Assembly (NCBI RefSeq): GCF_019947135.1 | Contig: NZ_JAGSHT010000031.1 | Span: 1-61,780, forward strand | DNA: 61,780 bases | Reading direction: 5' to 3' | From: Occultella gossypii | GTDB taxonomy: Bacteria > Actinomycetota > Actinomycetes > Actinomycetales > Beutenbergiaceae | In this document: positions 33,955 to 40,281 of the stretch, one piece after another | Position numbering within the stretch: position 1 is the stretch's first letter | Layout: every line of letters starts with the position of its first letter | Made by a program: the position numbers and the translations under genes | The notes under the pieces: generated by a model | Seen by the model: the letters and a program-made list of their open reading frames with translations, nothing else | Database searches by the model: none | What the model was told of the DNA's origin: nothing

Positions 33955-34263
33955 TCAGAGCTTGATCTCGATGTTGACGTCGGCCGGCAGGTCGAGTCGC
34001 ATGAGCGAGTCCACGGCCTTCGGCGTCGGGTCCACGATGTCGATCAGCCGCTTGTGCGTGCGCATCTCGAAGTGCTCGCGGCTGTCCTTGTACTTGTGCG
34101 GAGAACGGATGACGCAGAACACGTTCTTCTCGGTTGGCAGCGGCACCGGGCCCACGACCGTCGCACCAGCGCGAGTCACCGTGTCGACGATCTTGCGCGC
34201 CGAACTGTCGATGACCTCGTGGTCGTAGGACTTGAGCCGGATGCGGATCTTTTGTCCCGCCAT
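33955..34263 (-). CDS. rpsJ: 30S ribosomal protein S10 (NusE)
   Basis: S10 (uS10) is a 30S head protein that also acts as NusE in rRNA antitermination with NusG, whose gene is at 57367-58170. The 102 residues begin [15 protein letters not shown] and end [11 protein letters not shown] 34263 is fixed by homology; the open frame continues upstream without similarity. It is the first gene of the S10 operon, preceded by a long leader region. Confidence 0.98.
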
Positions 34264-34842
34264 GGCGTCGTCTGACTCTCTCTCGTAGTACCAACTGACC
34301 GACCCCCGCGCTCGGGCGTGTCGCGCTTTGCGACACACCCCACCGCCGTACACCGGTTGGTGTGGGTCGGAAGATGACTTGTGTGATCCGTCCGCCTGCC
34401 CCGTGGGCCAGTCAATCGAATCGGTCTGGGTCGGATGCCTGGTCGAGGGTCGAACTCGCCGTGTCTGCGACTGGCCGGCAGCTGAATCAACCAGCCGACC
34501 TACGCACACGCGTGTCCTGCACCCCTCGCACGAGGCAACCTGAACAGTCTGCCACAGGTGATGGGCAGATCCCAAGTCGGGCCTCGGTGGGATACGCCAC
34601 ACGGCCCGACGGCGGGGGTCACCGCGGGTCGTGCCGGTCGCCCCTCGAGCCGTTCCCGACACGCTACCAGCGCGCCTGCGGCGCCGCTGGTCGGCGCGCC
34701 CACGGCGTGCGCTGGGGATGCCTCCCGTAGGTGCCGTGCGCCGGCCTGCGCCACTGGCCCCGACGGCGGTCTCCCGCCGTCGCACGACGGCTCACGCCCA
34801 CGCCCTTGCCGCCGCGTGGTCACGCGCAGGACGGCAGCCTAC
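34264..34842 (-). promoter_or_regulatory. Promoter and leader region of the S10 operon
   Basis: A non-coding region before rpsJ. Positions 34301-34323 are identical to 40060-40082 in the rpsL leader. A hairpin (34318-34324 with 34330-34336, extendable) overlaps its end. A TTGACT lies at 34415-34410, but the sequence 18 bp on (ACGGAT) is a poor -10, so I do not call the promoter. If the leader begins near there it would be about 120 nt or more. Confidence 0.5.
34301..34323 (-). repeat. 23-nt leader motif, S10 copy
   Basis: Identical over 23 nt to 40060-40082 upstream of rpsL. The minus-strand sequence begins CGACACGCCCGAGCGCGGGG. It ends 38 bp before the rpsJ ATG and overlaps the side of a hairpin. 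The position in both major ribosomal leaders suggests a shared 5'-leader element. Confidence 0.75.
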
Positions 34843-34999
34843 GGTGCGCTCACGAGCCCTACGTGCGCTCACGCGGACAACCAGTGCACCGCGTGTGCTG
34901 ATGCCGGTCAGGGCAGCCCGCGATGTGCTCACGCCCGGCCACGGCAGCCCCGCGATGTGCTCAAGCCCGGCCACGGCAGCCCCACGGTGTGCTCACGTG
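34843..34999. repeat. Degenerate direct repeat array upstream of the S10 operon
   Basis: Six copies of a [G/C][A/G]TG[C/T]GCTCACG core start near 34843, 34862, 34891, 34922, 34954 and 34986. The last four are spaced about 31-32 bp and share flanks (CCCGGCCACGGCAGCCCC). No gene is present. It could be an array of protein-binding sites or a decaying minisatellite. Confidence 0.6.
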
Positions 35000-35083
35000 G
35001 GGCGGTGGCTACGCTCGGTCGGCGCCCGTCGCCGCTGGCGAGCACCGGGAGCGGGAACAGGACCAGGGTGCGAGCCTGGCGCC

Positions 35084-35455
35084 TCAGAGGCCGGTGACCG
35101 TCGAGTTCTCGTCCAGTCCGAGGATCTCGACCCGCAGACTCAGGTTCGCGACGTTGAAGCTGATGTACTTGTCGACGCCGGCGGATTCGGGTCGGTCCTG
35201 ACCGACCGAGATCTCACCGATGGTCCCCCGCGCGAAACCGGCCTTGCCGGTGATGATGACCTGCTGTCCCACTCGGAACGTGCCACTGACCACCTGGCCG
35301 GTGAACACCGTGCCGCTGCCGGGGACCTGGAAGGCATCCATGAGCTTCAGCGTCGCTGAGCCCAGGCCCGCCTCGGGCGCCTCGGCGTCCCATAGCGATT
35401 CCGCCTCTGCCGGCGTCGGTCCCTTGACGTCATTCCCCTGTGTGAACCATCCCAT
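35084..35455 (-). CDS. Small protein resembling a free-standing EF-Tu domain 2
   Basis: A 123-residue protein. From about residue 37, [20 protein letters not shown] followed by [15 protein letters not shown] resembles domain 2 of EF-Tu, whose copy in this window reads [16 protein letters not shown] followed by [15 protein letters not shown]. No GTPase motifs are present, so only the beta-barrel half could be made. An N-terminal stretch ([20 protein letters not shown]) is unlike EF-Tu. It lies on the same strand just after tuf, but a strong hairpin separates them, so expression may be separate. Function is unknown; binding to a nucleic acid, tRNA or peptide is conceivable. Confidence 0.75.
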
Positions 35456-35550
35456 GCGGGCCAGCGTACTGGCATCGACCGCCCGTTGGCGGGGACGGGG
35501 ATGGGCACCTCTACCTACCTTGCAGCGACCGCGGCCACGATCGGGACATG

Positions 35551-35585
35551 ACGAAGGGCCCGCCGGCGACCGGCGGGCCCTTCGT
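35551..35585 (-). terminator. Terminator after tuf
   Basis: A perfect 16-bp stem (35551-35566 with 35570-35585) with a 3-nt loop starts 29 bp past the tuf stop. It is among the strongest hairpins in the window. No T-run follows, as with the other terminators here. Confidence 0.8.
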
Positions 35586-35613
35586 CGGTGCTGGGCTCAG
35601 GCCCAGCGGTGGA

Positions 35614-36804
35614 TCACTTGATGATCTTGACCACGCGGCCGGAGCCGACGGTCCGGCCACCCTCGCGGATGGCGAAGCCGAGGCCCTCCTCCATGGCGAT
35701 CGGCTGGATCAGCGCGACCGTCATCTCGGTGTTGTCGCCGGGCATGACCATCTCGGTGCCCTCGGGCAGCGTGATGACACCGGTGACGTCCGTGGTACGG
35801 AAGTAGAACTGCGGACGGTAGTTCGCGTAGAACGGGTTGTGACGGCCGCCCTCGTCCTTGGCCAGGATGTAGACCTGAGCCTCGAAGTCGGTGTGCGGGG
35901 TGATCGAACCCGGCTTGGAGACGACCTGGCCGCGCTCGACGTCCTCGCGCTTGGTGCCGCGGAGCAGCAGACCGACGTTCTCGCCCGCGTCAGCGGTGTC
36001 GAGCAGCTTCCGGAACATCTCGATGCCGGTGACGATCGTCTTCTGCGGGGCGCGGATACCGACGATCTCCACCTCCTCGTTGACCTTGAGCTGGCCACGC
36101 TCCACACGACCGGTGACGACGGTGCCGCGCCCGGTGATGGTGAAGACGTCCTCGATCGGCATGAGGAAGGGCTTCTCGATGTCGCGGACCGGGTCCGGGA
36201 CGTTCTCGTCGACAGCGTCCATGAGGTCCTCGACGGACTTGACCCAGACCGGGTCGCCCTCGAGCGCCTTCAGGCCGGAGACGCGCACGACGGGCACGTT
36301 GTCGCCGTCGAACTCCTGGCTCGACAGCAGCTCACGGACCTCCATCTCGACGAGCTCGAGGATCTCCTCGTCGTCGACCATGTCGGACTTGTTGAGCGCG
36401 ACGAGCAGGTAGGGCACACCCACCTGGCGGGCGAGCAGCACGTGCTCGCGAGTCTGGGCCATCGGACCGTCGGTCGCCGCGACCACGAGGATCGCGCCGT
36501 CCATCTGCGCGGCACCGGTGATCATGTTCTTGATGTAGTCAGCGTGACCGGGGGCGTCAACGTGCGCGTAGTGGCGCTTCTCCGTCTGGTACTCCACGTG
36601 GGAGACGTTGATCGTGATACCGCGCTGACGCTCCTCCGGAGCGTTGTCCACCTGGTCGAACGGGGTGAACGTGTTCAGGTCGGGGTACTTGTCAGCGAGC
36701 ACCTTGGAGATGGCAGCGGTCAGCGTCGTCTTGCCGTGGTCGACGTGACCGATCGTGCCGATGTTGACGTGCGGCTTGGTCCGCTCGAACTTGGCCTTCG
36801 CCAC
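35614..36804 (-). CDS. tuf: Elongation factor Tu
   Basis: EF-Tu carries aminoacyl-tRNA to the ribosome. The 396 residues include GHVDHGKT (G1), DAPGHADY (G3), NKSDM (G4), the domain 2 barrel and the C-terminal [23 protein letters not shown] (in parts). GTG 36804 ([12 protein letters not shown]) follows AGGAGG, matching known actinobacterial N-termini. It is last in rpsL-rpsG-fusA-tuf, 123 bp after fusA. Confidence 0.98.
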
Positions 36805-36927
36805 TTGGTTCCTCCTGGAACTTGGGTAGTTGTACGCAGCATCTGGGGTGACTGGCTGTCGCCCCACTGAGGCTGAGCGATCCTACGGGTCGGTTTGGTG
36901 ATGGTGAAACAGGGTCGACCTGTGGGA

Positions 36928-39042
36928 CTACTCGCCCCGGGTCTTCTTGATGATCTCCTCGGAGACATTCCGAGGCACTTCGGCGTAGTTGCTGAACTGC
37001 ATCGAGTACACCGCACGACCCTGGGTCTTGGACCGCAGGTCGCCGATGTAGCCGAACATCTCCGACAACGGCACCAAGGCGCGAACCACCTTAACGCCGC
37101 TCGCGTCCTCCATCGACTGGATCTGGCCGCGGCGGGAGTTCAGGTCGCCGATGACTTCGCCCATGTACTCCTCGGGCGTGCGCACCTCGACGTCCATGAC
37201 CGGCTCCAGGAGCACCGGGTCGGCGCGCCTGACGCCTTCCTTCAGTGCCATCGAGCCGGCGATCTTGAAGGCCATCTCCGAGGAGTCGACGTCGTGGTAC
37301 GCGCCGTCCAGCAGAGTGGCCTTGATACCCACGAGCGGGTAGCCGGCGAGCACGCCGACCTGCAGGGCGTCCTGCACACCGGCGTCGACGCTCGGGATGT
37401 ACTCCCGCGGGACGCGGCCACCGGTGACCTTGTTGTCGAACTCGTAGAGTTCGCCGGCGTCGCTCTGGAGCGGCTCGAAGGACATCTGGACCTTCGCGAA
37501 CTGGCCCGAGCCACCGGTCTGCTTCTTGTGGGTGTAGTCGAGCTTGTCCACCTTGCGGCGGATCGTCTCGCGGTAGGCGACCTGCGGCTTGCCGACGTTC
37601 GCCTCGACGCGGAACTCGCGTCGCATGCGGTCCACCAGGATGTCCAGGTGGAGCTCGCCCATGCCGCCGATCTCGGTCTGGCCGGTGTCCTCGTTGAGGG
37701 ATACGGTGAACGTCGGGTCCTCGGCCGAGAGCTTCTGGATGGCCGTGGAGAGCTTCTCCTGGTCACCCTTCGTCTTCGGCTCGATCGCCACGAAGATGAC
37801 CGGGTCCGGGAAGGACATCGACTCGAGCACGATCGGCGCGTCCAGGGCCGCCAAGGTGTCACCGGTGGTGGTGTCCTTGAGCCCGATCGCGGCGTAGATG
37901 TGGCCGGCGTGGGCCTCGTCGACCGGGTTCTCCTTGTTGGCGTGCATCTGGAACAGCTTCCCGATGCGCTCCTTGCGGCCCTTGGTCGTGTTCATGACCT
38001 GGTCGCCGGGGTGGGCGAGACCGGAGTACACGCGGATGAACGTCAGGGTCCCGAAGAAGGGGTGCGACGCGATCTTGAACGCGAGCGCGGAGAACGGCTC
38101 GGACTCGGACGGCGCGCGGGTCAGTTCGACCGACTCGTCCTTCGGGTCGTGGCCGATCATGGGGGGCACGTCGATCGGGGACGGCAGGTAGTCGATGACC
38201 GCGTCGAGCATCGGCTGCACACCACGGTTCTTGAAGGCGGAGCCACAGAACACCGGGTAGGCCTCGGAGTTGATCGTCATCTTGCGGATGCCGGCCTTGA
38301 GCTCGGGGACGGTGAACTCCTCACCCTCCAGGAACTTCTCCATGAGCTCGTCGGACGCCTCGGCGACGTCCTCGACCAGCTGGGCGCGGTACTGCTGGGC
38401 GCGCTCGAGCAGGTCGGCGGGGATCTCCTGCGTCTCGTACGCGGCGCCCATCGTCACGTCGCCCTTGGAGTCACCGGGCCACACGAAGGCCTTCATGGTG
38501 ACCAGGTCGACGACACCGACGAACTCGCTCTCGGACCCGATCGGCAGCTGCATGACCAGCGGCTTGGCGCCGAGTCGCTTCACGATGGTCTCGACCGTGT
38601 AGTAGAAGTCCGCACCGAGCTTGTCCATCTTGTTGACGAAGCAGATGCGCGGCACGACGTACTTGTCGGCCTGACGCCACACCGTCTCGGACTGCGGCTC
38701 GACACCTTCCTTACCGTCGAACACGGCAACGGCACCGTCGAGGACGCGCAGCGAACGCTCAACCTCGACCGTGAAGTCCACGTGACCCGGGGTGTCGATG
38801 ATGTTGATCTGGTTGCCGTCCCAGAAGGAGGTGACCGCGGCGGAGGTGATGGTGATGCCGCGTTCCTTCTCCTGCTCCATCCAGTCGGTGGTCGACGCGC
38901 CATCGTGCGTCTCACCGAGCTTGTGGTTGACCCCCGTGTAGAACAGGATGCGTTCCGTGGTGGTGGTCTTGCCGGCATCGATGTGGGCCATGATGCCGAT
39001 GTTGCGGACCTTGGTGAGGTCGGTCAGCACGTCGAGTGCCAC
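36928..39042 (-). CDS. fusA: Elongation factor G
   Basis: EF-G drives translocation and, with RRF, ribosome recycling. The 704 residues have the GTPase motifs [20 protein letters not shown] and [10 protein letters not shown], then domains II-V ending in [21 protein letters not shown] and [11 protein letters not shown]. The GTG start at 39042 ([22 protein letters not shown] region) has an AGAGAG upstream. It lies after rpsG with a 14-bp hairpin in the gap. Confidence 0.98.
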
Positions 39043-39080
39043 AGTTGCTCTCTTCTGGTCGATACGAGCGTGATCAGGTG

Positions 39081-39113
39081 GGTCATGGCACCGGTGGTGC
39101 CGGTGCCATGACC
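39081..39113 (-). other. Hairpin between rpsG and fusA
   Basis: A perfect 14-bp stem (39081-39094 with 39100-39113) with loop TGGTG lies 8 bp after the rpsG stop. Because fusA-tuf are expected to be co-transcribed with rpsL-rpsG, it may be an attenuator or RNA-processing site rather than a full terminator. Confidence 0.6.
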
Positions 39114-39120
39114 GGTTCGA

Positions 39121-39591
39121 CTACCAGCGGTAGTGCGCGAAGGCCTTGTTCGACTCGGCCATCTTGTGGGTGTCCTCGCGGCGCTTGACCGCGGCACCGA
39201 GGCCGTTCGAGGCGTCGAGGATCTCGTTCATGAGACGCTCGGTCATCGTCTTCTCGCGGCGGGCGCGGGCGTAGTCCACGAGCCAGCGCAGGGCCAGCGT
39301 GGTCTGACGCGAGGCGCGGACCTCGATCGGCACCTGGTAGGTGGCGCCACCGACGCGGCGGGACCGGACCTCAAGGGTCGGGCGGACGTTCTCCAGCGCG
39401 CGCTTGAGCACGACGGCCGGGTCGGACTGAGTCTTCTCACGGACGCCCTCCAGGGCGCCGTAGACGATCCGCTCAGCGGTGGACTTCTTGCCGTCCATGA
39501 GCACCCGGTTCACGAGCTGGGTGACCGTCGGCGAACCGTAGACGGGATCGATCGCGAGCGGCCGCTTCGGGGCCGGACCCTTACGAGGCAT
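39121..39591 (-). CDS. rpsG: 30S ribosomal protein S7
   Basis: S7 (uS7) organises the 30S head and contacts E-site tRNA. The 156 residues begin [20 protein letters not shown] and end in the Trp-containing HYRW tail. ATG 39591 overlaps the rpsL stop (TAATG) and has AAGGAG upstream. Confidence 0.98.
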
Positions 39592-39965
39592 TACTTCTTC
39601 TCCTTCTTCGCGCCGTAACGGCTGCGAGCCTGCTGACGGCCGCGAACGCCCTGGGTGTCGAGTGCGCCACGCACGATCTTGTAACGAACACCCGGGAGGT
39701 CCTTCACACGGCCACCGCGCACGAGCACGATGGAGTGCTCCTGCAGGTTGTGACCGACGCCGGGGATGTACGCCGTGACCTCGATCTGGCTGGACAGTTT
39801 GACGCGGGCCACCTTGCGCAGAGCCGAGTTCGGCTTCTTCGGGGTCGTCGTGTACACGCGGGTGCACACACCGCGACGCTGCGGGCTGCCCTTGAGGGCA
39901 GGCGTCTTGGACTTGCTCACTTTGGCGTGGCGACCCTTGCGGACCAGCTGCTGAATGGTGGGCAC
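39591..39965 (-). CDS. rpsL: 30S ribosomal protein S12
   Basis: S12 (uS12) is at the decoding centre. The 124 residues are nearly invariant ([15 protein letters not shown]-like start, [23 protein letters not shown]). Lys43 and Lys88, the classic streptomycin-resistance positions, are both wild-type Lys. GTG 39965 is the start. It heads the str operon, with a promoter at 40252-40281 and a leader of about 280 nt. Confidence 0.98.
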
Positions 39966-40251
39966 TACATCTCCGTCTCGAAAGGCTGACTGCTCATGGT
40001 GATCGGGGTGCGATCAGGACCGGAACACTGCTGGCGCCCGGCGTATTCCACCCCGACGTGACCCCCGCGCTCGGGCGTGTCGTCCCCCTGCTCTTCACGC
40101 ACACTGCGCCCATCACGGGTGTTGTGGTGGTCGGTGTGCGTGCCGGACGGGGGTGACCCACCGCACGCTCATCCTTGTCCGAGCCCGTTTCGGGGCGACG
40201 ACCAGGTAACAGCGCGCACGCGAGAGCCCGACAGAGCGGGCACTGCCGACC
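39966..40251 (-). promoter_or_regulatory. rpsL (str operon) leader
   Basis: About 280 nt between the predicted start and the rpsL GTG. It holds the 23-nt motif shared with the S10 leader (40060-40082) and a nested hairpin (40096-40104 with 40134-40142, plus an inner 7-bp stem with one wobble at about 40110-40130). This may be a regulatory leader; no protein or ligand is implied by the sequence alone. Confidence 0.5.
40060..40082 (-). repeat. 23-nt leader motif, str copy
   Basis: Identical to 34301-34323 in the S10 leader, same strand relative to the downstream gene. It ends about 95 bp before the rpsL start, against 38 bp before rpsJ. Confidence 0.75.
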
Positions 40252-40281
40252 AGAGTACTCTCCGCGCGTCGGAAGCGTCAA
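40252..40281 (-). promoter_or_regulatory. Probable rpsL promoter
   Basis: TTGACG (40281-40276), an 18-bp spacer and TACTCT (40257-40252) on the minus strand, with TTT before and G after as in the rplM promoter. It faces away from the plus-strand symporter gene 200 bp to the right. Confidence 0.6.

Follow-up and report, generated by a model that had tools for sequence, protein, structure and literature searches.

Introduction

The closest described counterparts of the element studied here are operators of WhiA. In Mycoplasma gallisepticum, WhiA binds GAYACRCY in the promoter of the rpsJ operon, represses this operon and senses ATP (PMC11701221). According to the same study, phyla with whiA, among them Actinobacteria, carry the core ahead of rpsJ, together with second parts that are clade-specific, and in most Mollicutes WhiA sites lie downstream of the transcription start. 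In Streptomyces, WhiA is known mainly for its role in cell division. ChIP-seq in S. venezuelae gave the motif GACAC and listed rpsJ as a target, at 75 bp; the effect of WhiA was independent of site orientation, rpsJ was expressed at a lower level in a whiA mutant, and MEME on known Streptomyces WhiA targets retrieved nothing past GACAC, which at 5 bp is too common to predict sites from (PMC3781837). The main text of neither paper names rpsL. Open PMC papers were also searched, by motif letters and by WhiA together with rpsL. Among the matches listed, there was no report of a WhiA site at the str operon, and in those naming both WhiA and rpsL, the latter was a strain marker or a vector promoter.

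Leader RNAs of ribosomal protein (r-protein) genes are likewise found before such genes and link their expression, but they are structured RNAs, unlike the motif described below (PMC7247131, PMC10931766). Among the table rows listed in these sources, the r-protein leaders of Actinobacteria are those of L17 and L31 only, and there is none for S10 or S12.

Here we describe a sequence shared by the leaders of the S10 and str operons of Occultella gossypii. Its S10-operon copy is partly known. The str copy, the rule of one site per transcription unit and the copies on mobile elements look new, as far as the literature searched goes.

An identical repeat before rpsJ and rpsL

The window, meaning the whole stretch of 61,780 nt analysed (contig NZ_JAGSHT010000031.1), contains rpsJ (33955-34263) and rpsL (39591-39965), which encode S10 and S12 and lead the S10 and str operons, respectively. 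Both are on the minus strand. Direct comparison of positions 34301-34323, before rpsJ, with positions 40060-40082, before rpsL, gave identity at 23 of 23 nucleotides, in the same orientation. In gene sense, on the minus strand, both copies read CGACACGCCCGAGCGCGGGGGTC. The gap to the rpsJ ATG is 37 nt, the gap to the rpsL GTG is 94 nt, and the flanks of the two copies look unrelated. When up to 3 mismatches were allowed, these were the only two matches in the window (none in 100 dinucleotide shuffles) and again the only two in the whole 5.84 Mb genome (none with reversed-pattern controls). The sequence-only reading of this DNA, which had proposed the identity and the otherwise unrelated surroundings, is therefore upheld on both points; its statement that no copy precedes rplM, infA, rplK or rpoB is borne out by the genome search, within the limit of 3 mismatches only.

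An 18-nt core occurs exactly at 3 places in this genome. The third falls inside a 351-aa ORF and was rejected as a further site. With 1 mismatch, the core was found at 13 places, versus 8 for the reversed control. In the window, the 8-nt core GAYACRCC shows no enrichment (8 observed versus 14.7 expected). Two additional cores near rpsJ may be due to chance: GACACACC, which is inverted and adjoins the S10 site (34332-34339, plus strand), and GATACGCC at 34591-34598, which precedes the weak candidate for an rpsJ promoter presented below by some 15 nt. A second inverted core is not a general feature, being present in 2 of 78 leaders and also in 2 for the control. By eye, the motif resembles EF-G codons for DTPG.

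Conservation across Actinomycetes

Conservation before rpsJ and rpsL in related genera, on which the earlier proposal hinged, was searched for, and the site is widely kept. With up to 3 mismatches, it was present in 51 of 59 related genomes and in 29 of 35 genera, the reversed control giving 6 matches. A degenerate pattern, allowing at most 1 mismatch, detected it in 181 of the 196 genomes of the class and in 75 of 82 genera (2 matches for the control). A GTDB scan with a 25-nt form of the motif returned at least 119 matching stretches. Among the 119 listed, 76 have the match before rpsJ and 39 before rpsL, all 115 in sense, and the remaining 4 matches each lie within 220 nt of an end of the examined stretch (contig or locus ends). 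All of the 80 match titles among those listed name actinobacteria.

The pattern of conservation was read from 95 leaders, 51 of rpsJ and 44 of rpsL, that carry the motif with up to 3 mismatches, most of them having been chosen by the motif. Bases 2-6 are invariant in all 95, and bases 2-9 read GACACRCC, base 7 being G or A in 93 leaders and T in 2. The second half, CGRNNKCGK, is gapless and at a fixed spacing from the core. In freshwater hosts, AACAC often stands in place of GACAC. Three outgroup rpsL leaders (L164, L165 and L167), which score low on the class matrix, differ from the class at the Y of GAYACRCY (base 4): they have GATACKCC where class leaders have GACACRCC. This sequence directly precedes a TTGACA-type promoter, so relative to the promoter the site has the opposite position in these genomes.

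Among 81 low-GC genomes from the family of G220, a 16-nt core was present in 60, of which 57 have one copy and 3 have two (2 matches for the reversed control), and all 30 loci read carry the site in sense within the rpsL leader. Many rpsL leaders of this family (L220-L249) also show hairpin-like repeats upstream of the site, GCTCTT..AAGAGC for example.

About one site per transcription unit

To remove the bias of choosing leaders by the motif, one genome per genus was taken from an S10 search (124 of 128 genomes, 63 of 65 genera); 2 genera dropped out, their contigs ending at the gene. Scores came from a matrix derived from the earlier leaders, a part of which also belongs to this sample. Leader scores were bimodal, with sites at 20.7 or above and misses at 10.5 or below. 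The site was found in 49 of 51 rpsL leaders (the misses being L112 and L115) and in 28 of 61 rpsJ leaders.

In this sample, none of the 26 rpsJ leaders had a site when rpsJ was at most 250 nt from the end of tuf. The count was 3 of 9 for distances of 253-330 nt and 17 of 18 for those of at least 333 nt (the miss is L115), and all 8 leaders without tuf upstream of rpsJ in the locus had the site. The rpsJ site is thus present mainly where rpsJ is far from tuf, giving about one site per transcription unit, if, as the spacing suggests, an rpsJ far from tuf forms a separate unit.

L115 (G280) and G310, G319, G336, G354 and G362, which form a group of genera within the same order, have no site at either operon, or a decayed half (L115 rpsJ), yet whiA is intact.

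Promoters and leader structure

Of 44 rpsL leaders, 38 have a predicted promoter-like sequence upstream of the motif, at a distance of 53-212 nt, compared with 8 of 440 shuffles. In the window, it is TTGACG-18-TACTCT (40252-40281, minus strand), about 170 nt upstream of the motif. The predicted rpsL starts are therefore more distant than in the Mycoplasma precedent, where the interval is 22-40 nt, and a site within the transcribed region, as predicted for rpsL, would be shared with most Mollicutes (PMC11701221). At the same promoter score, 0 of 47 rpsJ leaders were positive, and 14 of 470 shuffles, so none stands above shuffle level; the rpsJ candidate of the window, TTGGGA-18-CAGACT (34546-34575, minus strand), is a weak one.

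In the window, the leader of rpsJ has a better fold than its shuffles (z -3.45), and that of rpsL does not (z 0.15). Over 78 leaders no consistent fold emerged, since pairing partners scatter and the best mean within the motif was 0.18. A bulged hairpin with a tetraloop, proposed by eye, was dropped, because bases 20-24 vary without compensation and their partners scatter. The best matches to 16S and 23S rRNA, whether by likeness or by complementarity of sequence, were at shuffle level, and Rfam gave no notable match, only a chance miRNA match of 25 bits versus a gathering score of 104.

WhiA as the probable reader of the site

Both repeats most probably constitute an extended WhiA operator. 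Bases 2-9 of the motif fit the published core GAYACRCY, the T at base 4 of the outgroup rpsL leaders agrees with its Y, and the M. gallisepticum operator has in common with the present site this core before rpsJ and a conserved part downstream (PMC11701221). The two differ in the second part, which is CGRNNKCGKGG here and GTTGT there, and in that an identical site here also precedes rpsL. With the S. venezuelae targets, the common points are rpsJ, GACAC and free orientation, whereas the motif is 5 bp long there (PMC3781837) and 17-20 bp are conserved here. As MEME shows GACAC only, a long second half is not a general property of WhiA sites. In three related Streptomyces rpsJ leaders, the core is 81-100 nt from the start.

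O. gossypii (G000) encodes an intact WhiA of 333 aa, with all three Pfam domains and close to the solved chains 8dy7 and 8dy9. Among the genomes tested, 50 of 52 have whiA, including many without the site. A whiA match was absent only from G133 (clearly) and from G004, which is 89% complete, and the site was also lost where whiA remains. No co-evolution of base 2 of the site (AACAC in freshwater hosts) with the WhiA helix-turn-helix (HTH) was detected in 29 proteins, one of which (L395) is badly cut. These results on whiA and its HTH count against WhiA as the reader, as do the long second half, the lack of enrichment of GAYACRCC in the window, the fold of the rpsJ leader and the silence of both WhiA papers on rpsL in their main texts.

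A different DNA-binding protein with a similar core, rather than WhiA, might read the site. Such a protein would account for a second half that lies outside the known Streptomyces WhiA motif, for the failure of whiA presence to predict the site, and for an HTH unchanged in AACAC hosts. We nevertheless hold it to be quite unlikely, given that the core is identical with GAYACRCY and that WhiA data at rpsJ come from two phyla.

Copies on phages and plasmids

Exact matches to the motif were found on 42 stretches of viral contigs, 5 of which have two copies. By tblastn, none of these 42 stretches encodes S10, S12, S7, L3 or an elongation factor. Twenty whole viral records have 1 to 4 copies each, with up to 3 mismatches, and two phage copies are devoid of the final GG of the motif. 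Rough gene calls sorted the 39 distinct phage sites into 17 flanked on both sides by genes of the opposite strand, 3 that separate divergent genes, 13 contained in small predicted ORFs, and 6 other cases. CRP-like sites are present within 80 nt upstream of 24 of the 38 phage copies scored, versus 11 of 380 control windows; DnaA boxes are near 11 of 38 (10 of 380 in controls) and LexA boxes near 7 of 38 (6 of 380). A promoter score of at least 10 was reached at 35% of the phage sites in antisense and 3% in sense (n=37), and in 13% of random windows. In one phage family, promoter, LexA box, motif and operon follow in sense. AT-rich phage contigs (L178, L184, L185, L189 and others in L172-L213) have clusters of CRP-like sites, DnaA boxes and LexA boxes, with the motif, in early, gene-poor regions.

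Plasmid NZ_CP049750 of Rhodococcus fascians A21d2 (L215) has two copies, each in sense before one of two divergent operons. One of these operons starts with an FtsK/SpoIIIE-type gene and a ParA gene.

That phage copies adjoin CRP-like, LexA and DnaA sites, and are often antisense to genes, points to DNA binding, and the mixed orientation in mobile elements fits a DNA site better than an RNA. Antisense copies also fit the orientation-free effect of WhiA in S. venezuelae.

If the motif were instead a leader-RNA element, an r-protein or elongation factor from these operons would bind the transcribed motif and feed back on both. Several results agree with this: the sense orientation of 115 of the 119 listed GTDB matches before rpsJ or rpsL, the presence of about one site per unit, the position downstream of likely rpsL promoters, the sense copy at each of the two plasmid operons, and the fold of the rpsJ leader (z -3.45). 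Moreover, the host copies that could be assigned are all in sense and, in the case of rpsL, inside the predicted leader, which would also be expected of an RNA element and counts against reading by WhiA. However, the 78 leaders have no consistent fold, rRNA likeness does not exceed that of shuffles, Rfam has no notable match, and 17 of 39 distinct phage sites are between two opposite-strand genes, all of which makes a leader RNA improbable. An element for pausing or antitermination of transcription, loaded where long operons begin, would suit the promoter-proximal position in rpsL units, the count of about one per unit and the phage family with its operon in sense, but is hardly credible, as the genome of O. 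gossypii has no third copy within 3 mismatches, hence none before other long operons, and most phage copies do not share the sense of the adjoining operon.

The earlier reading had suggested a shared leader element coordinating the S10 and str operons, for example through a protein, a stringent-response signal or an elongation pause. This is upheld in part: the element links both operons, is conserved well outside the genus and is most likely read by one protein. A leader RNA, a pause and a stringent-response signal find no support, given the lack of a consistent fold over 78 leaders, the antisense phage copies and the fit of the core to a WhiA site.

A proposed mechanism for WhiA at both operons

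For WhiA, we infer the following mechanism, including its reading of the str copy and the role given to the second half. The C-terminal HTH of WhiA would read the core GACACRCC (motif bases 2-9), and its homing-endonuclease-like part would read CGRNNKCGKGG, as a clade-specific auxiliary part; reading in two parts would explain a site that is long, asymmetric and gapless. By occupying the leader DNA of each unit, WhiA would put the str and S10 operons under one signal, for which the ATP level is a candidate, as in the Mycoplasma precedent. Repression of the operons when energy is low has, in our estimate, slightly less than an even chance. Activation by WhiA, which is considered because rpsJ is lower in the Streptomyces whiA mutant, is a more tentative option.

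The arguments seem evenly balanced for a broader proposal, in which WhiA acts throughout the Actinomycetes as a common switch for making ribosomes. Through a single extended operator in each str/S10 unit, one signal would set both operons, and every rpsJ that comes to form a unit by itself would receive a new copy. Phages and plasmids would copy the operator as well, frequently next to CRP, LexA and DnaA sites, in order to sense how their host is growing. If true, the 17-20 bp form, which marks the two operons in almost all genera sampled, would make part of the WhiA regulon predictable, division control would be tied to ribosome supply, and the co-ordination of both operons would have a testable answer in a phylum where little is known about it. 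The phage copies would then be viruses reading the same signal.

BLAST matches to named phages were weak, Moss and Franzy retaining only part of the site. On phage contig L178, around positions 580-640, a tRNA-like 3' end adjoins one phage copy.
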